Assembly: GCA_021018995.1 (NCBI GenBank) | Contig: CM037585.1 | Coordinates: forward strand, 122,726,831 to 122,790,830 | Source: Chloranthus sessilifolius | Taxonomy: Eukaryota; Streptophyta; Magnoliopsida; Chloranthales; Chloranthaceae | Direction: 5' to 3' | DNA: 64,000 nt | Shown: positions 1 through 36,529 of the stretch, piece after piece | How the letters are laid out: each line of letters begins with the position of its first letter | Position numbering within the stretch: position 1 is the stretch's first letter | The notes under the pieces: generated by a model | Database searches by the model: none | The model's input: only the letters and a program-made list of their open reading frames with translations | Told to the model about the DNA's origin: nothing | Program-made: the position numbers and the translations under genes

Positions 1-2926
1 TTATCTCCTGACAGAGAAGTGGAGTTCGCTATTGAGTTAGCTCCGAGTACCAATTCAGTATCGAAAGCACCATATAGAATGGCACTGACAGAGTTGAAAG
101 AGCTCAAGAAGAAATTGCAAGAGCTTCTTGATAAAGGCTTTATTAGACCGAGTGTGTCTCTGTGGGGCGCACCGGTGTTGTTCGTGAAAAGGAAAGACGG
201 TTCTATGCGCCTCTGTATTAATTATCGTCAACTCAATAAACTGACGATCAAGAATAGATATCCACTCCCTCGAATCGACGATCTCTTTGATCAGTTACAA
301 GGAGCGCATTTCTTTTCAAAAATTGATCTACGATCAGGATATCACCAGATGAAGGTGAAAGCTGAAGATATTTCGAAGACAACTTTTCGAACGCACAACG
401 ATCACTACGAGTTTCTAGTCATGCCCTTCGAGTTGACCAATGCACCTGCTGCATTTATGGACTTGATGAATCGAGTCTTCAAACCTTATCTTGATCAGTG
501 TATCGTGGTATTCATCGACGATATACTTATTTATTGAAAAAAAAAGACAGAGCATGAAGATCATCTACGTCTGACATTGCAAACATTGAGAGATTTGCAG
601 TTGTATGCAAAATTCAGTAAATGCGACTTCTAGTTGAATCAAGTCAGTTTTCTGGGCCATATTATCTCATAAGCGGGTATTACTGTTGATCCTACAAAGA
701 TCGAGGCTGTAGTACAGTGGAAGCAGCCACAGACAGTAACCGAGATCCGAAGTTTTCTAGGTCTTGCAGGTTATTACCGATATTTTGTAGAAGGATTTTC
801 ACGACTTGCTGGACCACTCACGCGGCTCACTTGAAAGAATGTTAAATTCGAGTGGACTGAGGCTTGTGAACATGGTTTCCAAGAATTGAAAAGGAGACTC
901 ACTTCAGTACCTGTTTTAGCATTACCATCAGGTAGTGGTGGTTTTGTCGTCTTCAGTGATGCGTCATACAGTGGGTTAGGTTGCGTTTTAAATCAATGGG
1001 AATGTGTAATTGCCTATGGTTCCCGTCAATTGAAAAGCCACGAGAAGAACTATCCCACTCACGACCTGGAATTAGTAGCGGTTTTTTTCGCATTAAAAAT
1101 CTGGAGACACTATCTGTATGGTAAAACATTCGAAATTTTCACCGATCACAAGAGTCTTAAATATCTCTTTACCCAGAAAGAGTTGAATTTGAGGCAGAGA
1201 AGGTGGATGAAATTCTTGAAAGACTACGACTGTTCTATTCAGTACCATCCCGGCAAAGCCAATGTTGTAGCTGATGCACTGAGTTGCAAGTCATCTACTC
1301 AGTTATCTCATCTTGTGACCCGGTTACAAAGATGGAAACTACTCAATGACATTGTATCATCGAGTGCCACTCTGCGAGCAACATCAACTGAAGGTTTACT
1401 TGCTACAGTAATGATCCGAGCTCCACTTTTTGATAGGATCAGAGAGCTCCAGATGCAAGATACAGAGCTTATTTCCATCCGACAAGGAGTACAAAGTGGG
1501 CTACAACCAGAATTCTCGATTAAGGACGATGGGTCCTTATTGTTTCGAGGTCGAGTATGCGTACCTGATGATCATGCCTTACGTCAGAAAATTCTCGAAG
1601 AAGCTCACAAGTCAGCATATGTTATTCATCCTGGCAGTACCAAGATGTACCAGGATCTCAAAAAGACATTTTGGTGGAACAGTTTAAAACGTGATGTTGC
1701 GAAATATGTTGCAAAGTGTTTAACCTATCAGCAAGTAAAGGTTGAGCACAAGCACCCTGCTGGTTTGTTACAGCCACTGCCCATTCTAGAGTAGAAATGG
1801 GAAAATATTTCCATGGATTTTATTCTCGGTTTGCCCTGTACTCAGAAAGGTTACAATGTGATTTGGGTAATTGTTGATCGTCTCACCAAATCAGCACATT
1901 TTGTATCCTATAGTACGCGATATACAGCGTCAAAATTGGTTGAAATCTATCTGCGAGAGATTGTGCGATTTACATGGGATACCCGTCAGCATTGTGTCAG
2001 ATCGCGACCCTTTATATACTTCGTGATTTTGGCAGAGTTTCCAAGAAGGTATGGGTTCCAAGTTAGACTTCAGCACTGCATTTCATCCTCAGACCGACGG
2101 GCAGACGGAGAGGGTAAATCAGGTGATAAAAGATATGTTAAGGGCCTATATGCTAGATTTTCAAGGATCGTGGGATAAACATTTACCCCTGATCGAATTT
2201 GCATACAATAACAGCTTCCAGTCAAGTATCGGTATGGCACCATTCGAGGCACTATATGGACGCCAATGTAAATCTCCGATTAACTGGGAAGAAGCTGAAG
2301 AGCGTTTGATTTTAGGCCCTGATTTGATCGAAAGCACCGATACAGTTGTTCACGTTATTCGAGAATGATTGAAGAGTGCTCAAAGTCGACAAAAGAGCTA
2401 CGCCGATCTCAAAAGAACAAGTGCTGATTTTCAGGTAATACCCAACACTGATAAGTCTTTTGTGACTTCACTAAACTATATTATCATTCTGATAAATGGT
2501 ATACAGATTGGCGAGCACGTCTTTATCAAAATCTCTCCGACGAAAGGCGTGATGCGGTTTGGGAAATGAGGCAAGTTGAGTCCTTGTTATGTTGGACCAT
2601 TCCTCGTTTTAGGCAGAATAGGGGAGGTCGCGTATCGACTCACTTTACCTCCGCATCTATCTGGCATTCATGATGTATTTCACATGTCTATGTTGAGGAA
2701 GTACGTTAGCGATCCAACGCATGTGTTGGATTATCAACCATTAGATATCCAAGAAGATTTAACGGTGACCGAAGAACAAGGCCAGATTTTGGATTGCAGA
2801 GATCAAATTTTACGAACAAAACGAATTCCACTCATCTTGATCCAATGGAAGAATTATGGATTGCATGAGGCTACCTGAGAACGCGAAGTTGATATTTGTG
2901 CTCAATACCCTCAATTCCTTACATAA
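1..2926 (+). pseudogene. Tekay/Del-like Ty3/gypsy pol fragment (copy 1)
   Basis: This is the distal part of a chromovirus polyprotein; the window opens just before reverse transcriptase. Visible in order are RT (palm motif FIDD at about 517-528), RNase H (SDASYSGLGCVL at about 955 and [11 protein letters not shown] at about 1140), the integrase zinc finger and core (VDRLTK at about 1876, SDRDP at about 1998, QTDGQTERVNQ at about 2090) and a C-terminal chromodomain (about 2780-2926). Unlike copy 2, both integrase aspartates are kept. The frame is broken by TGA at 535, further stops between 540 and 885, TAG at 1792, a one-base shift near 1969, a TGA just after SDRDP, and TGA at 2876 (Trp codon in the family). 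Downstream lie ORF2, a polypurine tract and the 3' LTR, all in the same orientation. Family assignment is firm; the copy is dead as a protein. Confidence 0.93.
2435..2506 (+). other. intron-like insertion in pol before the chromodomain (copy 1)
   Basis: A 72-bp AT-rich segment starting GTAATA and ending TATACAG interrupts the coding sequence after Asp-Phe-Gln (phase 0). Coding resumes with Ile-Gly-Glu-His-Val-Phe, which other elements of this family have directly after Asp-Phe. Copy 2 carries an unrelated-looking segment at exactly the same codon (17806-17886). Shared position plus GT-AG ends argue for a spliced intron rather than random insertions. Splicing itself is inferred. Confidence 0.65.
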
Positions 2927-3863: not shown

Positions 3864-5206
3864 ATGCCTCCTAGGAAGGCCGGGGTATCAAAACCCCCAA
3901 AAGCCTCAACTCAAGCAAAGGGCAAAGCCCCTGCTCCTTCCCGTGACCCAATCAATCCACCCGTTGAGCAAGAACAACCCGTCCCATGGTGGGCTGCGAA
4001 GGCTATGGAATCCGAATGGATCGTTGATGATCGACTACTGATATCGAACGACCAGACTGCATGGTCCATTAGGTATATGGAACAGGCGCGGTTAGACGCC
4101 TTATATCAACCATTCCATACCTAGTTTTATCCGCGTCTCGCCCATTTATTTTACCAAAATCTAAAAGTATCACCAACAGTTGGCCAATTGGAGACTAAAA
4201 TCGATAATCGAAAATTTTATTTCAATTTACAAGATATAACACACGCTATGGATTGTAGTCCAAATTTCGATGTCAGTCTCGGATTGCAAATGCCTCGACA
4301 AAGGGATGTGAAATTTCATCACATCACTACAAAAATGACTGATGGGCAGACCTCTTCAGGTAACGGCTTTGCAGTCCGTCGCAGCCAATTACCACAGAAA
4401 ATGTGGTTTCTTGACTGTGTATTATGTTGTAATTTAGACCCAATGCAGCATGAGAGAGAGCACCGAGATGCTCTCTTACAAGCTCTATTCACTGTGCATG
4501 AAAATTGATGATTAAATGGCCCTAGGGTGGTATGGGAAGGCATTAAATATGCCAATATCCATTTGCAAAGCAATGTCTCTAATCCCATGCCATCATGCCC
4601 CTATCCTCGTTTAATTTCCCGTCTTTTAGAAAGACATTCGGATAGTGTGAATCAAGTTCCCTATCAGATTCCCTAGGGTGAAGAAGTCCGCACGGATAAT
4701 ATGCGGGTCTTTAGCCCAGCTATCTGGCGAAATGTATGTCAAAGGTCATCCCAAGTGGTTCGAAACAACCAAGCTCACCAGATCCGTTCTCGTCCACCAC
4801 CTCCACAAGTACCACCCTCGATACCAACCCAAGACATCCTCATTCCCCCTCAATCTCACACTCAAGCACAAACCGAATCAGTTCCCTTGGCACCTGAAAC
4901 TTGCACCAATGCTGCTTTGGCACAGTTCATGCATGAAAACCATAAGCAGACATTCTCTAATTCGATAATTTATATCAAAATCATTATATGCTCTATCAAC
5001 GCATTGATTATATTGAAGAAGCAACAAACATCATGATGAAGCATACATTCCAAACTGCTACAAACCCTTACATTGGGCGGGCATCAATTTCGTCTCCCAA
5101 TACACCCGCAATGAAGCATTACTGGTGCAAGAATTCCAGTAAAACTTTCAGCAGCAAGATGAGGGTCCTTCCTCCGCTGGTCAACAACAACCGAGTCCAC
5201 AACCCG
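3864..5206 (+). pseudogene. ORF2 downstream of pol, plant-transposon-protein-like (copy 1)
   Basis: This is an extra sense-strand frame between pol and the 3' LTR. It starts MPPRKAG, continues with a basic, Pro/Ala-rich N-terminus, then blocks such as FYPRLAHLFYQNL (about 4125-4165) and QLPQKMWFLDCVL (about 4390-4430), which resemble the putative plant transposon protein domain found in the ORF2 of Athila-type elements. A Gln/Pro-rich tail follows. One frame runs to about 4950 with stops at 4122 (TAG), 4506 (TGA) and around 4610, and the tail continues in another frame. A leader donor-like GTAAAA at 3809 precedes the ATG, but the implied 55-bp intron would be unusually short. The frame ends at a GTAAAT donor at 5207, in phase 1 with the LTR exon at 7920. 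Its function is unknown. Chromoviruses of this type normally lack such a gene. Confidence 0.6.
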
Positions 5207-5561
5207 GTAAATTATAACCTTAGAAGCTAGTAGTCTATATATGACATTTTAATCTTGCATAGGATTCATTTGAGTTCATCTACACCAAAATAGTAGACTT
5301 GTGTTTAATTGTGTAATATATATCACTCATGTCTCGACTTGATGAGTGATAAGTGTTGTTGTTAATATCATTGCGGTTCTATCTGTTTTAGTTAGATTTT
5401 GTTTTGTTCATTTGAGATTTTACTGTATGTTATCTTACTTTTTATATTTCTAGTTGTCATGTTCCACATGTCGTATGAACGAAACTATTGATGTTCGCTA
5501 TTGCGGCATTCACCTACTGCCCATCGTTGTCTCGATTTATTTTCGAGGACGAAAATTCCTT

Positions 5562-5574
5562 AAATTGGGGAGAA
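5562..5574 (+). promoter_or_regulatory. polypurine tract of copy 1
   Basis: The purine run AAATTGGGGAGAA lies directly before the LTR start TGTAACG. It is the plus-strand priming site expected for a Ty3/gypsy element. Confidence 0.85.
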
Positions 5575-6587
5575 TGTAACGATTCCCAGATTTGTACACT
5601 ACGTAGTAGCGATAAGAGTCCGGTCAAGTCAAACATGTGGTCTGATGGAAATAAATCCCTATAAAGTATATATCTATAACCATATACACTGATATACACT
5701 AAGCTAGGTATAGCCACAGTAACTTGATATTCCCTATTCCAGAAATTTGGTGTCGTATAATAGCTTGGCACAAAACTAAAGCCTTGTTTTGATTTATACA
5801 CAAGGACAAAGAGGTTTGATTTAGTATAATAGCTTTACACACTACTAAAGCCCTGTTGTCACTTATATACAAGTACAAACACAAAAAATCTTGTTTTGAT
5901 TTAAATACAAGAAGACGCCGGCTCTGCATGTTTTGTTTTTTTCTGCAATACATGTACATAGGTAGTGCTGGCTTTATATGGAATTTTAACTTGAAGGAGC
6001 TTGTAAGCTACTTGCATGGATTATTGTTTACATGACTCAAATGAGTCATCTTCCGGTTTCATGCACGCAAAGTGCAGTAACCCCTTATAAAATCTAATAC
6101 CATTACCGTCATCTTCCTCCTTTAAAGTTCAGTGAAAGCAAATCCTGCACCTATGGTCTACATATCCAATGACACCATGGTCACGTATAGCAATCCTAGC
6201 CCAGCCCTGACGACCTCTGTTACAAGTTAAGACCATAGTGCGCTTTATGATCCCACAATTTCGATTCCACATCTTGCATCCGCTAGTTGAAGTGCAAAGC
6301 ATTTTGTGTAGCATTACGTTGAGGTTAACTCAAAACGACCTTGTAATTATCAAACACGGCAAGCACAACATCGATAGTCGGTTAACACAAATCCACCAAA
6401 AGGTACGATAACGAACACCTTATGATACCCGAAGTTATATGATACGCGAGCTCTGATGTCGAGCACCTACAATCGCATAGGCAACACAAACAGTGAACAC
6501 TAAGTGTTGTTGTGTGCTGAAGGCAAGTGAGCAATGTATATATCTGTATATATAAGATATATAAGGAATTATAGATAGCAGTCTATC

Positions 6588-6593
<6 letters not shown>

Positions 6594-6648
<55 letters not shown>
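6594..6648. repeat. (AT)n microsatellite
   Basis: An uninterrupted AT dinucleotide run of about 55 bp inside the copy 1 LTR. A similar run lies at 7346-7385. Confidence 0.98.
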
Positions 6649-6651
<3 letters not shown>

Positions 6652-6712
6652 GCAACAATTTACAAAGACACCAAAACCAGAAAAGCCAGGCAGAAACCAC
6701 AGCAAGCTTTGC

Positions 6713-6834
6713 TTGCCGCGGCAACCTTTGCTTGCCGCGGCAAGATACTCTGCTGAGTGGCTTGCCGCGGCAACCTCATAGGGTTGCTGCGACAAGGTTC
6801 TTGCCGCGGCAACCCTAGAAGCTTGCCGCAGCAA
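6713..6834. repeat. palindrome cluster TTGCCGCGGCAA in LTR (copy 1)
   Basis: Six copies lie within 122 bp. Exact copies are at 6713-6724, 6732-6743, 6762-6773 and 6801-6812; degenerate ones lie at about 6784-6795 and at 6823-6834. Spacers are unrelated, so this is not a simple tandem repeat. The motif is shared with the ORF2 leader of the same element. Confidence 0.92.
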
Positions 6835-7341
6835 CCACTAGCAGATGAGGTTTTGGGCAGTGCTTCTTGCATATCGGACCTTGGGTCCATTAAGGATCCA
6901 GATAATTATATCTTTGGGTCTCAGGGTCTCAGGTACACCATGAGTCCATCTGTTGAATACTAACTTTTAATATAAATCTATTCTATTTATCATAGATTGG
7001 TGCAACATGGTGCAGTTAGGCAGTTTTATGCACATGCATGGTGTTCTCAGATATATGATCACACATACCTACTGATGCCCATTCCTAGTCAAGTAAGAAT
7101 CTACAAACAAGTAGGGAATATATGGTTGTTCATATATAATTAATCGTTTGTCATATTATCATAAGGATGCCAATTATTCCTCTTAGAGCTAAAATAATGA
7201 TAGTGATGAATTACTGATAAACATGCTTCGGGTAACATGTAGACCTCTGAGCGTGATAAACCGGATCGGATAGGATATCAAGGAACTAGATTATCAGTTG
7301 GTTTGATGAAACCACATATTAGTTGACCACATGTTTAGTAC

Positions 7342-7388
<47 letters not shown>

Positions 7389-7593
7389 TGGAAATCCATT
7401 TTTTTTAAAAAGGTTTACTAATTGTGCCCTTCAGTTGGATAGGACTAAGTATAAGTTGTGCCTAGTAGTTTTATACTATGATAATGAGATAGAAATGAAT
7501 ATAAGTAAGCATACCCCTTCTTTGAATTTATACATTGATCATTATTCAGAATCATGTTATTTGTAGTATCCTTTATACGTTGTTGCTCCATCT

Positions 7594-7697
7594 TGAGTCA
7601 AGTGATCCCGCTAACTCGAGAGTTTGACAAGTGATCCCGCTACTTCGGGAGCTTGATCTATCTTGGTCCAAGTGATCCCGCTAACTTGGGAGCTTGA
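7594..7697 (+). repeat. three-unit tandem repeat in LTR
   Basis: The core AAGTGATCCCGCTA, followed by a variable AACTCGAGAG-like tail and TTGA, recurs three times at irregular spacing of about 30-40 bp. Confidence 0.85.
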
Positions 7698-7919
7698 TTT
7701 TGCTGTTGCGACCTCGATGTGTATCTTATTTCAGCTTGATTTTTCATACCTCTTGCATCATGAATATTGTATCATTATATTAATCATATAATTGTAAAGT
7801 CATAGGTTTTATGCTTCTCGATGAAAATGCCATAACTTGTCATTGTATGTTAGCAATGTAATATTTTCTACTGAGCTTTGATGATAGCTCATTCCACGAC
7901 TTAAATGTCTTACCTGCAG

Positions 7920-8017
7920 AGCCTGATTCGGAGCACGCTGCAGATCCTACTTACGTGCCCGAAGAGGAGGGAGAAGAGAAGGAAGACGATTTCGCCAAAG
8001 AGTTCTTCCCAAAATAG
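7920..8017 (+). CDS. putative terminal exon of ORF2 encoded in the 3' LTR (copy 1)
   Basis: A splice-acceptor-like TTACCTGCAG ends at 7919. It is followed in phase 1 by an acidic reading frame of about 32 residues with core TYVPEEEGEE and C-terminus KEFFPK, closed by TAG at 8015-8017. Equivalent frames lie at the same distance from the LTR 3' end in copy 2 (12857-12951) and in the minus-strand LTR (9295-9377); all start in phase 1 after an AG. The donor at 5207, ending ORF2, is also phase 1, so joining them keeps the frame. Family conservation at the peptide level is visible in the sequence; that it is spliced to ORF2 is inference. It could instead be a regulatory block that happens to lack stops. 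Confidence 0.5.
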
Positions 8018-8396
8018 GTTGTGACGTGGGGATTAGGGAGATAGAGAGAGAGGTAGAGATAGACTTGAAAGACTTGTAAAACTTATATACGATAGTTTCA
8101 GATATTTTATCATTTGGATGTATAGGTTTTCTTTCCATTGTTTAGATGACGGGTGGCGGTCATCGGTGGAAAGCTATACATCATATCTTTTGAGCTTGTT
8201 TATATCGTTGCTAGTACTGCATAGATAAGCAAAACTCAGTTATTTTTCCATATTAACAACTGCCAGAATAACTACATTGTTTTCGCATTTATAAAACTTT
8301 GTACAAGAAATGACCCCTTAGATGAAAGGATCATATTAGGTGATCCGACGACGCGACGGTTCCTTAATGATATGAAAGGAAACGTCGGGTTGTCAC

Positions 8397-8950
8397 ACAC
8401 ACGAAGTATATTCAGATTACTACGGAACCCTTTCCTTGTAAAGCGTGATTTAGTGAAATTGTCCCACTATACCTTGTCCTAGAGTTAAGTTGTAAGAGTA
8501 TGATAAGATACGAATACGAGATAAGATTAGTATGAGTATGATAATAAGATACCACTGTGTAAGTCAGTAAAAGATTAAGAACTTATATCTTTGCACATGT
8601 CATTCCTTGTGTAGCCACCGTAAGGGCAACGTCTTTCAGCCAAGACGGGTCTCTAAGAGACATTATGAGTATTAGTATATTATGAGTTACGTTTGGCCAT
8701 TATGTCATCCCATTAAGCTGAATGGAGGAGCATGAGTATGATATGAGGGCGTTATGGTATGGTAGTATGATACTATAGTGACCCCTATATGGTAGCTCAA
8801 GCAACGACTCAGGCACATGTTGTTTAAGATTTATGAGTATGTTAGTTATGATCATGTAATGTACAGACGTATCTGCGAGAATAATAAAATATGTTTTGTT
8901 ATGAGATATGGTAAGGTACGTTTGGATATGAATGTCTATATCATGGTCTT
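8397..8950. other. unassigned sequence between LTRs
   Basis: AT-rich sequence with repeated GAGTATGATAAGA-like words. It may be an older LTR fragment into which copy 1 and the minus-strand LTR were inserted. No gene was seen. Confidence 0.4.
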
Positions 8951-9294
8951 TGTGACAACCCGAATTTTTCCGACTCATTTTTCTGAGATATATATATATA
9001 TATTCTTTAAACTTTAAACCAAATGAGAAAACTTAGACCGCCAGATCGTAGATCACAATCTGAAAATATGATTTACTTAGTACATCCACACACATGCAGA
9101 AATCAAAGCAGATAATACATATAGCATAACTAAAATCTCCAGTTCTAATATCCAACATGAACAGTAACTAAACAAATCATTAGTGATGACAGACTATCAC
9201 CAAATAGTGGTGTACAATAGCATGAATGTATAAGTCAAAACTTACAAAAATCCATAATGTACTAAATCTACGATCCCTGAACTAGGGGTACAAA

Positions 9295-9377: not shown

Positions 9378-10405
9378 CTATGACGTATAGTCAGGGTGAG
9401 CTAACAGTCTAAGCTCAGTAAATGAATCTCAAATTCAATTGATATCTTATCATATAATCACATAGATTTAATGACAGAAGTAAAAACGAAACTGAGCAGA
9501 CATTCAAGGATCGAAACAAATACGAATACAGAGTGGATATTCAAATTGAAACAAAAACGGAAGTAAATTAAGTATTCAAATTCAGTTTTCATTAGTCACA
9601 CCAAACAGTATGTCAGTTTCTATTATTCACATCTTACAGTGTTTAATTCTTGCAATGTTCATATCTTATAATTCAAGTCCTAAGGTTCAGATTTTTATCG
9701 CCGAGTGTGTCCATATCTTTCAGTATCTCTTAGTGTTTATATCTTCCAGTGTGTTCACATCTTTCAATATACATGCAAAGCAGTAGTACGGATAACTCCG
9801 CCATACCGGGTCCACAGGTATACGATATAAAGATGTACGAAAAATACATGTCGATCGTCCAAGATATGCAAGATGCGATATGTATGAAAAAAACTCGTCA
9901 TCGTCCAGTATGCATATAGTGTACAGTTAAGCTGTCAGTTTCTAATATTCATACAAAAAGAGTTTTAGACTTCATAGGATTCAATTTCTCAAATGCAGTC
10001 AATCTTACAAATTAGATTTCAAATCACAGTTATCACTTTCAGTCCAAATGTTTGAATACAGTCAAATTAACAAGTTCCAAATCCATTCCTAAGATCATAA
10101 CTTAATTCAAACGGATATCATGTCAAATCAGATTCAAGGCATCAATTTCAAAGAGTTCTAATCACCTCATTCGATCTTACAACGATATCTATGAAATCAA
10201 TTCAAAAATATAATGAGTAATTAGTTTCCCTTATCTCAGATTTAGAGCCGTTCAAAGCGATTCAAATGCCCTCATCTATGACCTCCCATTCTTAACCTAG
10301 ATTTCATTAACTCCGTACTACGTGTCAATAGTGTCGAAAATAAATGTCTCAAAGTCTCCCAGAGTTTTTTTCCAAAGAAAAATCGAAAAGCCAGAAACAG
10401 GGAAA

Positions 10406-10684: not shown

Positions 10685-11681
10685 TTTGATAGTTTCAGAA
10701 ACCCTTCGGGCTTCTTCTTCCTTAATTCATTTTCCCAAATTCAAGGATTTTCATACCTATTCTTCACACACTCGTTAATCCAAGTCTAGAACATTTAATA
10801 TCACATTAAAACGTTAATTTAATCTAAAAATAAGAGATCATTCACCTTTTTAAATCATGCATTCGTTGCGTATTTCGGGCGAAAACTGGCATCGATTCTT
10901 CCACGCGAAGCGGTTTGAGACCTCTCGCGCTCTGTAATATCCCGAATATTTTGGCTTATTTTTCATTTACCTCGATAAGCGTGTCTAAAAAATATTGTGG
11001 AATATTTTTGGATTTTTGGTAAGCTAAGGCTATAATAAGACTAATGGCCAAAGGAATTAACCTTGAGAGGTGTGCAAGTCAAGTAAGCAATTGAATTACA
11101 CAATAGGATTGGTGTATGTGTTCAACATGGGATATTTTGCAAATTAAGTGGATAAGTTGAAAATAAAAATGTCTAGATTTTATTAGGATTTGTTTTGTAT
11201 TATAACAGAGAGAATTGAAAGAGAAGTTACACCTCTCTCTCATTTGAATTAGAATTTGCAACCTTTTTGCTTTGCGTTTCGATCTTTAGATCTTGTGAGC
11301 TTGAGAGCTCCTCTCCCCATCTCAACCATTAATTAGCCTTGTGCTTAAAATCTGATCGGTTTGAGCTAGTAGAAGAGAAGGATAAGGGAGAGAGGGTTAC
11401 TGTGTTGATAAGGATTTGTGCAGTAGAGGAAGGTTTATAATGGGCTGATTTGAAGTTTTTAAACCATTGAGCTTGAAGATTGGTTCCGGTGCGTGTATAG
11501 GTGCAACGGGATCAACGGTTTAAGCTACAAGAGGCGGGTCTTTGAAACCTCCTTGTGTCAATTTAATTATGTTTTGTTTAGATTTGAATGATGTGTGTTC
11601 ATTATAAAATCTGATGGCTGTGGTTGAAAATGAAGAAAAAGTCCGGACATGAAAAGTTGACAGCCACAGAACTAGTGAAAT

Positions 11682-11967
11682 TCGAGGGTCGATTTTCAAA
11701 TCGAGGTTCAAAATTGGAATTCGACCATCGATTTGAAATTCGACAGTCGAAATCTGTATTTTTAGTGCCTGAAGCAAATTTTGAAAATCGAGGGTCGATT
11801 TCCAATTCGAGGGTCGAATTTGGAAATCAACCATCGAATTGAAAATCGAGGGTCGATTTTTAGGTTTTTGTGACTGATGAGTTTTTTTTGAAATTCGAGG
11901 GTCAAAATCAAATTCGACCATCGAATTTCAAATTCGACTCACGAATTTGAATTCGAGGGTCGAATTC
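11682..11967. repeat. TTCGA-GGG-TCGAA inverted-repeat cluster (copy 2 LTR)
   Basis: About ten copies of a near-palindrome with arms TTCGA/TCGAA around a 3-base centre (GGG or its variants CCA/ACC) lie in 290 bp. The same motif recurs at 18705-18856, between pol and ORF2 of this element. Confidence 0.88.
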
Positions 11968-12856
11968 TGTCCTGTTTCAGGCATTTGAAAATTTTGTTGG
12001 ATTTTTTTCTCAGCAAGCTTTTGGTTTGATTTTTTGGTTCTATATTAACATTGAGAGTGTTAATATATGTAGGTTTTGACTATTAGGAGTCCTTGGTGAG
12101 GACTGCTTGTGCTTGATTTTAAATCTTCTTGTTGAGGTAGGGGAACCCTATATTTAATTTGCATTGAATTATAAGTATACCTGATTTGACTGTTCATTTA
12201 AGAAGCATAAATTTAGGAAATTATGTTGCATACAGCATGAATAAAACTCTGAATGTATGACACAAATCCGAAAAATTGGAAACCTTGTTATGACTAAGAA
12301 CTTCGAAATTTGAACCTCAGAACCTCAGTTAATCTTTGAATCAGAACTTTGAATCAGAACTTCGAAAAAAAATCAGTGTTATATTATTAATAATAAACCT
12401 TGATATATGTTAGCATTTGCATTCGATTTGGGGTTCATACGGACGATGCCCTAGATTCTACCAACCGTGTTGACGGTATTACTTTGGCGCAAGTTTCTCT
12501 CATAGCGTAGGGGCTTGTTGCACTTCAGAAAATGGGTTCATGAACGACGATGGTCAGTAGGGTTTTCCCATCGGTCACGTAGTCCGCTCTCATGCTATAG
12601 AAAATTCGGGAGATAAAATTAAGTTATAAATTTAAGACAAGAAGCATGCTAAATCAGAAGATTTTCGAACACATTAGATTATGTTATCAATTTTGACTCA
12701 GGATTAGAACTGGAGATTTACTTTGGAAAGCATCATTTGAAACCATATTTGATCCGATTTTTGTCTTTTGAAAACCTTTACTTATAAAGAAACTCAAATA
12801 GATCTGTTTCCTCTATTGGGCTTGGCTGTTAGCTCACCCTCGACTATACGTCACAG

Positions 12857-12951
12857 GTGCTGAGGCTGACCTTGGGTCAGAGGATCTGGAGGACTCCGAT
12901 TACATTCCCGAGGAGGATTTGGACATACCAGCTGAGGAGTTTTTCCCTTGA
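12857..12951 (+). CDS. putative LTR-encoded exon (copy 2)
   Basis: The acceptor block CTCGACTATACGTCACAG precedes a phase-1 frame of about 30 acidic residues with core SDYIPEEDLD and end AEEFFP, closed by TGA at 12949. Alignment with copy 1 (YVPEEE ... KEFFPK) is clear at the peptide level although the surrounding LTR DNA has diverged strongly. It lies in the 5' LTR here; the functional copy would be the one in the lost 3' LTR. Confidence 0.5.
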
Positions 12952-13292
12952 TCTTAGATCCTTTATTTTTGGTACTTTTGTCATAATATTTTTGAATATT
13001 GGGCCCTAGGCCATTTTGTTATTTGGTTCTTTGATATCACTCGAGGAACCATTATTGTGAACCACTATTTTAGGTGTTGGATTAGCCATCACCGGTGGTT
13101 CTTCTTGGTTCCTCATAGTGACATTTTTTGTTGTTAAAAGCTTTTATTTTGGATTAATATATGTTTTGCCTCTATCTTTAGATCTTTGTTATGTTGCTGG
13201 CTTCTGTTTGTTATGACTTATTGAGAAATCAATAAGTTGATGAACCGGCCTTTCCTATACCTTAGGGATTGAAAAAGTCGGGTCGTCACAGT

Positions 13293-13305
13293 TGGTACCA
13301 GAGCA
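13293..13305 (+). promoter_or_regulatory. primer binding site (tRNA-iMet type) of copy 2
   Basis: TGGTACCAGAGCA follows the LTR end by two bases and closely matches the plant initiator-Met primer site TGGTATCAGAGC. Confidence 0.85.
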
Positions 13306-14700: not shown

Positions 14701-14824
14701 GTATCATTAAAATTGAGATGTCATTTATGCATTGATTTTATTATTTAAATGTTCGAATTCATTCAAGTATTATGTTAAACCACATTGAAATCATTGCATA
14801 TAATTAACAAGCTTTTCAATAAAG
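14701..14824 (+). other. intron between gag and protease (copy 2)
   Basis: A 124-bp segment, GTATCA...AATAAAG, is very AT-rich compared with its flanks and has a possible branch site (TTAAC) about 20-25 bp from its end. Gag is in frame 3 and protease-pol in frame 1. Removing exactly this segment joins CAA-G to GT-ACC and gives the family's usual Gly-Thr-Leu junction before the protease, in a single frame. Retention would end translation nine codons after the zinc-knuckle domain, giving Gag alone. Confidence 0.75.
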
Positions 14825-17800: not shown

Positions 17801-18306
17801 TTGAGGTAGTTTAACTGCACTAATGTGTATTTCTTCACTTGGTATATATTCCATATGAAAATTGGCACTAATAATTGATTTTTCACGTCGGCGAGAATGT
17901 CTTTGTTAAGATTTTGCCTACGAAGGGCGTTATGCGATTCGGGAAACGAGGGAAACTGAGTCCTCGGTACGTTGGGCCTTTTGAGATATTAGGCCGAGTC
18001 GGAGAGGTTGCATACTGTGTGGCGCTACCGCCGCAATTGTCAAGCATGCACAATATCTTCCATGTGTCGATGTTCCGTCGATACATCCGTGACCCGACTC
18101 ACGTGCTTGATTACCAACCCATCGAGCTTCGGGATGGTTTGAAGGTGATTGAGGACCCGGTTCATATTTTAGATCGCAAGGAGCAGATCCTACACACTAA
18201 GAGGATTCCTTTGGTTCTCGTGCAATGGCGGAATCATACCCCAGAGGAAGCCACTTGGGAGCGTGAAGCTGAGCTTCGAGAACAATTTCCCCGCCTTTTT
18301 GATTGA
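14825..18306 (+). pseudogene. protease-RT-RNaseH-integrase-chromodomain polyprotein (copy 2)
   Basis: In order: protease ([11 protein letters not shown] at about 14880), RT ([11 protein letters not shown] at about 15879), RNase H ([12 protein letters not shown] at about 16327; [11 protein letters not shown] at about 16510), integrase zinc finger (about 16975-17105), integrase core (VNRLTKSAHF at about 17245; SNRDPLF at about 17369; QTDGQTERVNQ at about 17461) and chromodomain (about 18170-18306), ending at TGA 18304. The frame is constant apart from point stops (TAA 15952, one TAG and one TGA before 16135, TGA 16570, TAA 17077, TGA 17737) and the small intron. Both catalytic aspartates of integrase read Asn here, so this copy could not integrate even if translated. 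Clade Tekay/Del is judged from the chromodomain C-terminus and the overall motifs. Confidence 0.95.
17806..17886 (+). other. intron-like insertion in pol before the chromodomain (copy 2)
   Basis: An 81-bp AT-rich segment begins GTAGTT after Asp-Phe-Glu and ends TTGATTTTTCAC before Val-Gly-Glu-Asn. It sits at the same codon as the 72-bp insertion of copy 1. The expected acceptor CAG reads CAC, so this copy's splice site appears mutated. It contains an in-frame TAA and is not readable as protein. Confidence 0.6.
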
Positions 18307-19123: not shown

Positions 19124-19303
19124 ATGGGACCTAAGAAGCAAACCCCAATTCGAAATCCCACCTCTAAACGACCAGCTTCCAAGGCTGCGTCTTCTAGCCG
19201 ATCTAAACAGCCCGAAGAGCCACCTCAATTGGTTCCACAACCCACAGCGCCCATACCACCACCTGTGTTCCCTCCCATGCTTGAGCAGCCCAGTGAATTC
19301 TAG
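19124..19303 (+). pseudogene. 5' fragment of ORF2 (copy 2)
   Basis: A frame starting MGPKKQTPIRNPTSKRPASK continues Pro-rich for 59 codons to a TAG at 19301. Basic start, proline content and position after pol match ORF2 of copy 1 (MPPRKAG...). The conserved domain is absent because the element breaks off just after; no polypurine tract or 3' LTR follows. A donor-like GTAAAC and an acceptor-like TTCTATTAG precede the ATG, suggesting a leader intron. Confidence 0.55.
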
Positions 19304-20236: not shown

Positions 20237-20319
20237 CTCATTTTGCATCTGAAACAATGGTAACATCCCTTCTCCAATCTCATTTTGCATCTCAAACAAT
20301 GGCAACATCCATTCTCCTC
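20237..20319 (+). repeat. tandem duplication over the GDSL start codon
   Basis: About 41 bp (AATCTCATTTTGCATCTGAA... through the ATG and CTTCTCC) is repeated once with a few differences, creating ATGs at 20257 and 20299 in the same frame. The extra copy adds 14 residues before the signal peptide. Confidence 0.88.
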
Positions 20320-21346
20320 TCTTCCATCCACTTGATGCTCCTATGTGTAATGATCTTTACAGCTAGTGCCGCGAAACTTCCGAAATTTTCCGGCCTCTAT
20401 GCCTTTGGTGATTCTACTGTCGATACAGGCAACAACGATTTTACGTTGACGCTTTTCAGGAGTGACCACCAGCCTTTTGGATCATCATTACCAAATAAGA
20501 AGCCTACGGGAAGATTTTCAAATGGAAGACTCGTACCCGATTTCTTAGTCTCCCAATTGGGTCTTAAGGAATTTCTCCCACCATTTCTAGACCCATCTTT
20601 GTCAAATGAAGACATCCGAACTGGAGTATGCTTTGCTACAGCAGGGTCCGGTTTTGATGACCTTACAACTGCTGCATCTGGGGTGATTCCTGTATCGAAG
20701 CAACCCGGAATGTTTAAGTCGTATTTGGCTCGACTTAAAGGAATTGTTGGAGAAAATGAATCTTCTAAAATCGTTAGCGAAGCCTTGTTTTTGCTTAGTG
20801 CAGGATCTAATGACTTCTTTTTCAATTATTATGACATACCCACAAGAAGTTTAGAATACAACATTAGTGGATACCAAGATTTTCTACACCAAAGGCTACA
20901 AAATATAGTGAAGGTACTACCTCTCTTTTTCTCTCTATTGGGAAACCGCAGAGGTTGCCCAAAATATAGAATCTTTAGGGTTATTATGCAAGCGCTACTT
21001 CTTTAACTTGGATTCTGCATGACTGAGAGGCGTTCAGTTATAATTCGACACACGGTAGCTTGATAGCTTCGCGCTTGATTGAAAAGTCAGTGGTGTGTCG
21101 GATTATGATTGAATCTCTAACTCAAAGAAAAAAAATATTATTATTATTTTATTTTATTTTGAAAATAGTATAAAACTGACATTTTTTTTTTCTAAAGAGA
21201 GTCCTTTATGTCATTATCCCTTTATTTATTTTTTATATGTTTATCTTTTTTAAATAGAAGAAGAAACTGCTGCCATGTCAACACTTTTTTTCTTCATACT
21301 TTAATATAGATGAACTTTTAAGTACTGAGTTATTACTAGGTGTTTT

Positions 21347-21395
<49 letters not shown>

Positions 21396-22063
21396 GTGCA
21401 TATAAATATAAAATGTACTTCAACTAAGATATTATCACATCAACTCATGGTGGGGACATGGGCATCCTTTAGGGATTAGTTCATGTGTAAGTTTGAGATA
21501 CCCTAAATTATATGTTAAAAAAAAAATATTACGACATCTAGACCTGCGATGTACTTTTGAGTCGTGGATGTTAACACTTTTAAGTCAGCAATACACTAAT
21601 ACATAAGTAGAAAGGATGGTAAAATCATTAGTTACGAAAGGTTTCGAGTATAATAATCTAAACCTATCAGACGGTTAAGCTTTCATCAAGGCCTTGATCT
21701 GTAGCAAAGATATTTATTTCTCCTTCTTTATTATTATTATTCACTTTGGTTTTCATGATTTCTTTATTTTTCCCAATGCAGGAACTATATCTTCTTGGTG
21801 GCAGAAAATTTGCCATAGCTAGTTTGCCTCCAATCGGATGTATACCACTCCAAATCACTGGTCAATTAAAGAATCCACTGGACCGAACATGCATTAATCA
21901 ACAAAACTCTGATTCTCTTGATTACAATGTTAAGCTTGAGAAGTTGTTACCCAAACTACAGGCATCCCTTCCAGGGAGCCAAATAGTCTTTGCCGACATC
22001 TACAATCCATTGATGGACATGGTTAACAAACCCCAACTATATGGTAAGCAACTTTTCTTTAAG

Positions 22064-22138
<75 letters not shown>

Positions 22139-22530
22139 TAGAGGGGTCCATAATCTTATAAGAGGAGAGACAGGGCCATGAATATCTCATGTGAGACTAA
22201 ATTTCAACAGACTCTCACATGTGTTGGTTGGATTGAGCCAAATTACGTGAACAATTAAATTGGGTGATGTTGAGTGGAGAAGGTCTGCTCTGATATCATG
22301 ATAAATTTAGGTGTCCATCTCAAAACCACACTATAAAAAAAAAGTGTTTCAGCGGCACTTGCTATTAAGACAGTTTTTGGTAGCGACAGGACTACTAGCA
22401 GTAGTTTTTTGTTAAAAAAATTGCTGCTAATAGTCTTATTTTTTATAGTGAATTGGCAATGAGTGGAGGGGCCCATAATCTTATAAGATGAGAGAAAAAG
22501 GCTATGAAAAGCGGATATGAGAGTAAACTT

Positions 22531-33343: not shown

Positions 33344-35609
33344 TTATTTTATTTTCATGTTCCCGAATGAAACATCCATAACCCTTGTTTGACAATTTAT
33401 ACATGCGTTGGCCGTTGCTAAAAACGGCTGACCAAGAATAATTGGGGCTTGTTTGCTAGAAACAGAAGAATGGACCATATCTAACAACACAAAATTTAAT
33501 GGGAAGAAAAACTTATCTATTCCCACCAAAACACGCTATAAAATTCCTCTTGGATGTCTCTCTGAACTGTCATCTAACTGAAGAGCTACTGCCGTGGGTT
33601 GCAACTCACCCAAACCAAGTTTTTTGTAGACTTAGTATGATAAAAGGTTAACGCTCTCCCTTAAATCCAGCAATGCCTTATTAGTGGTGTGTCCAACAAT
33701 GGCACATGAAGTTGTTGGCACGCCTGGGTCCTTCATTTTTGGGGTGTGTCTAACCTGAGTAAGGAACTTACCCGCTTGGTCAGGAATTTTTTTTTAGAGA
33801 TAGGGGTCCATGACTTACGCTTCTGTGTGCACATGCTTTCAAGAATTTAGCGTAAGATGGGACCTGCTTTATCGCATCAAGGAGAGGAAGATTGATCTTC
33901 ACTTGTTTAAATGTTTCAATCATTTCCTCAATCCTTGTTTTATCTTTACTGAAGGGTGATGACGTCTCTAAACAATGTGGAAAAGGAGCTTTTGGTATGA
34001 ATGATTTCTTTTCCACTTGTTTGGATGTAGGATTCCTTTCAGGTGTATGCATGGTGATTTCAGATTGCTCACCAGTTTCTAAGAAATTCTTCCCCTCCAA
34101 TGTTGATTGCTTATTTTCTTCCTCTACGATCTCTATTTGCCTTTCTCTGTTCTCGTCAGCTTCTTTCCTCAATCCACCATATTATCGACCATCCTTCCAC
34201 TTTGAAGAGTGGTAACAACTTGAACTTGCTCGTGAGAATTTTGTGAGGTCCCTCCCTGATATTGTCCTATGGGATTAGCCAAAGGTTGGCTTGGTAGGCT
34301 GCCTTCCTCCCTATGATTCAACGAGTTAGCTATTCGCCCAATTTGTGTCTTGAGCTTATCTATTGACTGAGTGTGGGGGTGAAGAATTTGCGACTGAGTG
34401 TTAAATCTATCGCTGGCTTGAAGGACTTTGTCCTCAAAAGCAGAATTCTTAGGTGGTGATGGAGCAGCTTGTGGATTATAGGACTGATTGTGTTGAGATT
34501 GATGAAATTCAGGAGGCCTCACTTGTGCAATTGGTCGCGCAGGCTGAGTGTATGTTGCGCCTTGACCTTGCACTCTCCATGAAAAGTTTTAGTGATTCCT
34601 CCACCTTGAATTTTATGTATTTGAGAACGGATTCGCCTCTTGCCTACCAAAGGATTGTGCAATATGTACTTGTTCTTGCACGAAATCAGGGTACATTATG
34701 CGGATGGGCATTCAGTAATGGTATGAGTTTGACTCTAACAAATGGAGCATATCTCATGAATGGGAGCTTGATTCTGCTGCTGAGTCACTAGCACTAACTG
34801 GTCCAATTAACTTCGTAAATACTACATCTAGATGTAGAGGTATATTACGCGAGGGAACATCACCATCTCGGTGAGTCAAAGCAGCATGTTGTAATGAGTT
34901 TTCACTGAGGGTTTCAAAGAGGTTCTAAGCCTCATCTTCATTTTTGGTAAGGAACGTACCATCGCACGAAGCGCTGACCATGTGTCGGCTGCGCTCTATT
35001 AACCCCTCATAAAAGTTTTGCACCAATTGCCATCTGGGTACGCCATAATGATGACATTTTTTGAGTATTTCCTTTAAATGATCCCAACTTTCATGAAGTT
35101 CTTCCCATGGAAGTTGGGCGAAAGTAGTAATGGTTCTCCTAATTTGATTAGTCTTCCTGATGGGGTAAAATTTCTTAAGGAATTCTTGAATTAATTGAGC
35201 CCATGTGGTAAGTGAATTGACTGGCAAAGAGTGCAACCAAGGCTTGACTTTATCTTTCAATGAAAGGGGAATAATCTTAATTTTATAGCTTCTCTGAGAG
35301 ATGAACCAATTTGAAAGTGGTACAGAGTTCAAGGAATTCATTTAAGTGCTTAAGGGTCCTCATTGCTCAATCCACGAAACAATGGAATCGATTGAATGGT
35401 AGAGGGTTTGATTTCAAAAGCCTCTGTTGAGGTGGCTAGTAGTCGAATGCAAGAGTCCTAAGTTGTTCTTCTTCCGCTATGTTGCAATTAACAAAATTAA
35501 CCTCGGTACGACAGCCTCTCCTAAGAATCTTACAAGTTATATCTATTTCTAGATTAAGATGTTCTAGTTCAGGGTAAAGAGAACATATACCAAGAACCAA
35601 TTTACTCAC
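33344..35609 (-). pseudogene. Athila-like gag-protease, minus copy
   Basis: Read from the right: gag core (SLKDKVKPWLHSLP at about 35255; FAQLPWEELHESWDHLKEIL at about 35115), a Gln/Pro-rich linker (34573-34169), the conserved LPLLDAIKQVPSYAKFLK (about 33860), then aspartic protease pieces, ALLDLRESVNLL at about 33680 (Gly after DL replaced by Arg) and LGQPFLATANACINC at about 33420. RT is missing. The left end meets the opposite-strand gag remnant near 33300; the right end is cut by the solo LTR at 35610. Frameshifts are numerous. Confidence 0.85.
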
Positions 35610-35949
35610 TGTGACAGCCCAGATTTTCTCAACGTGATTTTTCTGAGATTTTTTTTTTCTTTAACTGTACCCAAACCAACTGGGAAAATTCAGACCGCCA
35701 GATCGTAGATCACAATCTGAATATAGAATATTTAGTACATTCACACACATGTTGAAATCAAAGTAGAATATACATGCTGTAATTAAAATCTTCAATTCTA
35801 ATATCCAACATAAACAGTAAACTAAAACAAACAACCAATGATGGCCAACCCTCACCTAACAGTGGTGTACCATACATGTATAATAACACGAGCGTACCAA
35901 GTCTAAACTTACCAAAATCCACAATGTACTAATTCTATGATCCCGAAAA

Positions 35950-35999
35950 TCTGACAAGTCCTCAAGTCCTCAAGTTCGATGTCTTAATAAGTGTTATAC
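35950..35999 (-). pseudogene. decayed LTR-encoded exon (solo LTR)
   Basis: The minus strand keeps the conserved block TTAGCTCACCCTGACTATAC followed by GTCACAG at the same distance from the LTR end as in the other Tekay-like LTRs, but the frame after it is broken and lacks the YVPEE core. Confidence 0.4.
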
Positions 36000-36529
36000 C
36001 TGTGACGTATAGTCAGGGTGAGCTAACAGTGTAAGCTCAGTGGAGAAAACTGATACCAATATACATCTCCTCAGTTATGCATAGATTCAAAGACAGATAA
36101 AAATATTTTCATACTCAAAATAGAAACTGGATTTAAAGTGCATTTTCTTATCAAAACCTAAACTGATTTCGAATGTCTTTTCTTATCAAAACTGAAACTG
36201 ATTTCAAATGCCTTTTCTTATCAAAACTTAAACTAATTTCGAATGTCTTTGCTTATCAAAACTTAAACTGATTTCAAAAGTATTTTCTTATCAAAATGAA
36301 ACTGATTCCAAATGCATTTTCTCACTAAAGAAAACTTCGTATCAAAACATGGTGTTTTGTTCATGTCAAAACGAAAAAGAATTTACTGAGCACACTCACT
36401 TACGTATCTTATCTTTGATTTACTGAATTCGATTCACATTCACTTACATGTCTTATCTTGATTTTATTAAATTCGATTCTTTTTTACTTACATGTCTTAT
36501 CTTGGTTTTTCCAGTTTGACTCCGCCCTA

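Follow-up and report, generated by a model that had tools for sequence, protein, structure and literature searches.

A predicted terminal coding exon in the long terminal repeat of a chromodomain Ty3 retrotransposon from Chloranthus sessilifolius

As a rule, long terminal repeats (LTRs) are taken to be non-coding, and insertions are dated with them as neutral clocks; among the retroviruses the accessory genes nef of HIV and sag of MMTV reach into the 3' LTR. In plants, the gag-pol of CRM group A chromoviruses, and that of the Reina-clade elements Bingo1-4 and Bingo7 of beet, has been described as extending into the 3' LTR (PMC3059260, PMC3605345). Splicing has been reported or predicted for the expression of env-like or additional open reading frames (ORFs) in Bagy-2 and Athila (PMC7264820, PMC2829016), and Ogre, a Ty3 element, has a gag-pol intron that only a fraction of its transcripts lose by splicing (PMC6317226). 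Additional ORFs are also described in Tekay-clade elements of sunflower, together with a similarity to Transposase_32 in an Athila ORF (PMC11728184).

Here we examine a 64-kb stretch of the Chloranthus sessilifolius genome (the window), in which a chromodomain Ty3 (Tekay/Del-like) retrotransposon, copy 1, carries an extra gene in sense orientation, ORF2, after pol and ahead of the 3' LTR. The original prediction was that ORF2 finishes in an exon inside this LTR, reached by splicing, and that nothing similar was known in plants. The latter point needs qualification, since coding sequence in the 3' LTR is on record for CRM group A and Reina elements, although there as an extension of gag-pol. 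The continuous gag-pol ORF that defines CRM group A is not found here: pol of a second element, copy 2, is closed at 18304-18306, after the chromodomain (by eye), and ORF2 and a polypurine tract stand between pol and the LTR in copy 1. A reading in which pol runs on without a break into the LTR was rejected. The additional ORF of the sunflower Tekay elements lies on the 5' side and, as far as the available account describes it, has neither a known domain nor an exon in the LTR, whereas ORF2 of copy 1 lies on the 3' side. In the open literature, as far as its accessible text goes and with a 2011 survey of extra plant Ty3 ORFs outside its scope, we found no description of a plant LTR that holds a terminal exon reached by splicing.

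Elements of the window and the reading frame in their LTRs

Copy 1 is a 5'-truncated element on the plus strand, with pol from base 1, ORF2 (3864-5206), a polypurine tract (5567-5574; GGGGAGAA) and, abutting this tract, a 3' LTR of about 2.8 kb (5575-8397, TG...CA, ends by eye) that opens with TGTAAC. A solo LTR with its 3' end at 8953 follows on the minus strand. Copy 2, on the plus strand, consists of a 5' LTR (10933-13290, ends by eye; PBS at 13293), a broken gag-pol that extends to 18306 (read by eye) and a truncated ORF2 start (MGPKKQ..., 19124-19303), which recurs in two genome copies (L057, L058). A further solo-type LTR lies near 36 kb (35593-36218, minus strand).

Domain searches identified protease, reverse transcriptase (RT), zinc knuckle and Chromo (PF00385, 27.3 bits against a cut-off of 25.1) in copy 2, and RNase H, H2C2 and SH3_Tf2-1 in copy 1; in a later set of four pol pieces, one gave no match. 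The domain order is that of Ty3 pol with a chromodomain after the integrase, which defines chromoviruses and not Tekay alone; 'Tekay-like' is the label of the earlier description. Reading frames, judged by eye, also point to apparent short introns in gag-pol (14701-14824, 17806-17886 and 2435-2506, plus strand), one of them between the zinc knuckle and the protease of copy 2; another, before the integrase SH3-like region, occupies the same place in both copies and has lost its AG in copy 2. At 20250-22150 (plus strand) the ORFs resemble, by eye, a GDSL esterase/lipase-like gene.

Three window LTRs carry a phase-1 acidic frame closed by a stop codon, in copy 1 (7920-8017, plus strand), copy 2 (12857-12951, plus strand) and the solo LTR (9377-9295, minus strand), and their coordinates, frames and endings agree with the original prediction. 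The translated peptides are PDSEHAADPTYVPEEEGEEKEDDFAKEFFPK, AEADLGSEDLEDSDYIPEEDLDIPAEEFFP and VCTDWDLGLEEDPYYVPEEEDLPPED, respectively. Y[V/I]PEE has only three matches in the six frames of the 64-kb window, and these are the three LTR exons. For each of the three pairs, peptide similarity exceeds 2000/2000 dinucleotide shuffles, and the phase-1 sense scores (53, 49 and 59) stand against 8-28 for other sense frame pairs. Because the LTRs are homologous, we also used substitution-matched nulls, which reached the observed peptide score in 1, 0 and 0 of 5000 cases and equalled or exceeded the third-position differences in 13, 152 and 0 of 5000. One antisense frame in codon register scores fairly high (36.5, 27.5 and 41.5, versus 50.5, 35.5 and 58.5 for sense). 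When the DNA of copy 2 and the solo LTR is aligned without protein guidance, 77 columns are in phase and 0 out of phase, and the differences fall 8, 3 and 18 on the three codon positions (binomial P 0.0014). The corresponding unguided comparisons are weaker for copy 1 with copy 2 (5, 4, 11; 20 out-of-phase columns; P 0.038) and for copy 1 with the solo LTR (1, 4, 6; 25 out-of-phase columns; P 0.12). No ATG occurs in the three window copies from the preceding in-frame stop to the exon, and the exon therefore needs an upstream exon; a uORF reading was rejected on the same ground.

Searching the 2.17-Gb source assembly with a 111-base probe from the copy-1 exon, we scored 40 matches among 725 candidates. 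All 40 places were retrieved, one being the window's own copy, and seven match pairs lie 10.3-11.4 kb apart, as expected for two LTRs of one element. Among these 40 LTRs the exon is open and ends in a stop in 34, the six exceptions being L022, L029, L032, L037, L044 and L050; AG stands just before it in 37, corresponding to the predicted 3' splice site of copy 1 (7918-7919, plus strand). Exon length differs from that of the window copy in 36 copies, by a multiple of three in 34 of them; in four flank windows, such multiples make up 19/38, 5/35, 20/37 and 3/16 of the length changes. Diversity at 7950-8014 is 0.233 at third positions versus 0.086 at first and second positions (permutation P 0.0007), and over the whole exon (7922-8014) it is 0.192 versus 0.094 (P 0.0023); the flank windows tested have no significant codon periodicity. 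Exon omega, pooled over non-independent pairs, is 0.31, versus 0.51-0.92 in control frames, and resembles that of the ORF2 body (0.34).

A family-wide LTR alignment with dN/dS had been named beforehand as a check on the predicted protein-coding constraint, and for the copy-1 family the omega, the open frames, the third-position excess and the in-frame length changes bear the prediction out. The segment is under coding constraint, and we consider it very probably to be a terminal coding exon, encoding an acidic C-terminal tail and its stop. In the first ten codons every position is conserved and there is no periodicity, and this part of the exon may bear a second constraint. ORF2 is the most likely upstream partner.

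ORF2 and its candidate donor

ORF2, the proposed first exon, was recognized from its translation, third-position periodicity and a sub-gathering Transposase_32 match. The window copy contains stops at 4122, 4506, 4509 and 4674, and then a frameshift. Because of these lesions the window is insufficient for phase: two candidate frames have close codon scores there, and the claim that ORF2 meets GTAAAT in phase 1 was decided on genome copies, where it held. Of the 40 copy-1 loci, 16 contain the ORF2 3' end, one (L050) only the front part and one (L047) only a distant relative, and all seven elements paired by distance and strand have ORF2 sequence before the 3' LTR. Measured against the ORF2 body, 13/16 copies arrive at position 5206 in phase 1 (L027, L035 and L055 were scored by the later of two body matches), and three of the 16, the window copy included, are frameshifted at this check. 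None of the 13 copies examined for openness is open throughout.

Coding constraint on ORF2 continues to 5206. Specifically, diversity by codon position in the 77 bases ending at 5206 is 0.139, 0.040 and 0.331 in the 16 copies (P 5e-5), and the final 25 codons have an omega of 0.08; immediately beyond 5206 these copies no longer have a strong codon-position pattern. Twenty more ORF2 ends, from the best matches of a junction-probe search, bring the number to 36; in these, 5110-5206 gives 0.101, 0.052 and 0.237 (P 5e-5), and 5207-5276 has no codon periodicity. A point against the proposal is an unexplained excess at third positions of the ORF2 frame further into the proposed intron, at 5283-5359 (plus strand; P 0.0007).

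The proposed 5' splice site is GTAAAT at 5207-5212 (plus strand, phase 1), placed there by consensus matches and genome copies. Its GT is present in 26/36 copies, with AT in nine and CT in one, so that the G is unusually variable; the copies with AT may represent a subfamily or decay. The donor is the weakest part of the case.

The affinities of ORF2 are distant. Read through its stops, window ORF2 matches Transposase_32 (PF20167) at E 3.1e-4 and 21.1 bits, the gathering cut-off being 45 bits; split into three pieces, it gives no match. Five ORF2 pieces from the genome gave 4.6e-5, 2.1e-4, 0.13 and two without a match, all below 45 bits. ORF2 thus resembles Transposase_32 in sequence, below the curated cut-off. 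A protein database search with read-through ORF2 returned nothing within E 0.01 (1135 candidates) or E 10 (115 candidates). An RT query against the same database reached plant proteins (8000 candidates scored, best 120 listed), so the ORF2 miss is not due to an absence of plants. Viral contigs searched with the RT and ORF2 queries yielded no relative and no match, and among genome contigs with an RT pattern, eight short contigs, the TACTGAG...CTCA motif occurs in 0/8. One copy-1 locus (L047, G000:C9:82415127-82420835) was considered as a second ORF2 before the same LTR and dropped: it holds a different ORF2-like stretch, diverged at 32-39% identity, followed by the LTR start without a polypurine tract. 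A copy-1-type LTR was apparently inserted there in the ORF2 of another family, which suggests that ORF2-bearing families are diverse.

Given the phase, the constraint and the acceptor, we propose that in the copy-1 family ORF2 is probably spliced from 5206 to 7920, which would add the LTR-encoded tail. A transcript running into the 3' LTR would lose an intron that takes in the polypurine tract and the greater part of the LTR, with a length of 2478-2941 nt in 15/16 copies (about 2.7 kb in the window) and 4379 nt in one, and would gain an acidic tail of about 30 residues ending in EFFPK. Unspliced RNA would yield a tail-less ORF2 with three more codons and then a stop, and would stay a complete template for reverse transcription. 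Spliced RNA, lacking the polypurine tract, should not serve as such a template. A 198-base junction probe made of the two window stretches gave one-sided matches only, and no intronless or processed copy, among 40 scored of 759 candidates. This absence is neutral, because spliced RNA would lack the polypurine tract; in the general retroelement cycle, no processed copy is expected to arise through the element's own replication.

Alternatively, the LTR exon may be coding but joined in a family-specific way to another donor, an upstream ORF2 site or another exon, with ORF2 normally ending unspliced in GKL and a stop (copy-1 family) or GDF and a stop (copy-2 family). We judge this unlikely, even though several observations fit it. 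The unspliced-frame stop (TAA at 5215-5217, plus strand, in copy 1) is kept in 35/36 copy-1 ends. In the copy-2 family the ORF2 end is present in 10 of the 23 stretches given; there the TAG stop is kept in 10/10, and GTAAAT or a consensus donor is absent in 10/10. Phase-1 GT was found in that family only upstream, inside Gly codons, with coding periodicity up to one of them. Against another donor, only two sites in 4601-5577 of the window copy match the donor consensus at six or more of eight positions, GTAAAT at 5207 and a site at 4734; the latter lies 57 bases past the codon start at 4677, which gives phase 0 and not 1. The spliced tail originally proposed is favoured in the copy-1 family by exon constraint, AG and phase, but is not supported in that form for copy 2, with its conserved stop and no GTAAAT.

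The acceptor-side block and the copy-2 and solo families

The splice from 5206 to 7920 that we favour for the copy-1 family would place the acceptor beside a conserved block (7872-7909, plus strand), which has low diversity in the 40 copies. The block TTAGCTCACCCTGACTATACGTCA occurs unchanged at 9404 and 36026 (both minus strand) and with one extra base at 12829 (plus strand), and is not kept in copy 1, in accordance with the original statement that three of the four LTRs keep it nearly unchanged. The conserved block of copy 1 has the inverted repeats TGAGCT-N8-AGCTCA and GAC-N6-GTC, and the first of them, written as TGRGCT-N-AGCTCA, is present in 4/4 window LTRs and has no other occurrence in the 64 kb.

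Together the two inverted repeats, TGRGCT-N8/9-AGCTCA and GAC-N5/6-GTC, adjoin the acceptor at 7872-7909, 12817-12852, 9417-9382 (minus strand) and 36039-36004 (minus strand). Each of the four window LTRs has both, despite the divergence of these LTRs elsewhere.

The first repeat is fully paired in 29/40 copies. Single-sequence RNA-structure z-scores are weak (-1.09, 0.41, -0.89 and -1.77), the loop is conserved within the copy-1 family about as much as the arms, and an Rfam search returned nothing at gathering.

The exon also has coding-like properties in the copy-2 family, whose ORF2 has only 35% identity to that of copy 1 over 127 aa, read with X at stops. This is a young, large family (40 scored of 2516 candidates, with 96-100% identity), and 20/21 of its exons are open in a set drawn from the 40 best matches, the window copy included. 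For the solo family (40 scored of 1630 candidates), 19 places were retrieved and, with the window's own, make 20. A common in-frame TGA interrupts 13/20 of these exons (three of the 20 do not fit the acceptor pattern, and their frames were judged by eye), and the variation within the family has no third-position excess. In view of these stops, the suggestion that every solo LTR could serve as a spare exon is not supported. L080, the single solo-family element end examined, had no match to either ORF2 query, and the pattern fits a loss of the exon frame where ORF2 has been lost, on one case. Speaking against such a sequence of losses, a copy-2 element end (L060) likewise had no match to either ORF2 query, but its LTR has an open exon (L098), though this copy is young.

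These observations bear on the view that the LTR segment owes its conservation to a role as DNA or RNA, such as a promoter, R region or paired structure, and that its frame is incidental or a relic. Conservation of 7860-7949 at every position, inverted repeats included, would agree with it, as would the exact block in the LTR near 36 kb, whose exon has decayed, and the interrupted solo-family frames. A GAC/GAG-rich acidic tract, moreover, could through slippage explain part of the in-frame lengths. Slippage does not explain the third-position excess, however, and neither this excess, the in-frame lengths and the low omega in 40 copies nor the same codon pattern between families is expected of a motif; we consider this view improbable. 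A chance open frame in related repeats, for which it could be said that the window itself holds only three copies, is rejected as highly implausible on the shuffles, the substitution-matched nulls, the 34 open copies, the codon-position statistics, the flank controls and the family comparison.

A possible switch and its relation to known systems

If the copy-1 splice occurs as proposed, the LTR exon could act as a switch, by which a transcript either makes an acid-tailed ORF2 protein or stays a template for reverse transcription. The balance between the two may depend on the conserved paired block next to the acceptor, the LTR would be under protein-level selection, and subfamilies without ORF2 would in time lose the exon frame. 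We offer this combined scheme tentatively, as a possibility on which our doubts outweigh our confidence. As to the tail itself, a guess would be that it binds basic partners such as nucleoproteins.

Were the terminal exon real, it would place part of an LTR under protein selection and would escape any annotation that looks for additional genes by their ORFs. In a plant retroelement, splicing would then be coupled to whether an RNA serves as messenger or as genome.

The accessory proteins of HIV (nef) and MMTV (sag) resemble the proposed tail in being partly encoded in the LTR of an integrated retroelement, but these are vertebrate viruses with unrelated genes, and their coding sequence is not known to be a small separate terminal exon. 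Ogre offers a likeness in its retained intron and partial splicing, as would be the case in copy 1. Bagy-2 and Athila, like copy 1, have an additional ORF in sense orientation downstream of pol and before the 3' LTR, but the available descriptions place no coding exon in the LTR, unlike our proposal. CRM group A and Bingo elements, as far as they are described in the accessible text, share with copy 1 the condition of a plant chromodomain Ty3 element with protein-coding sequence in the 3' LTR; there the gag-pol ORF itself runs into the LTR, whereas here a separate ORF after pol would be joined to the LTR by a splice over the polypurine tract.
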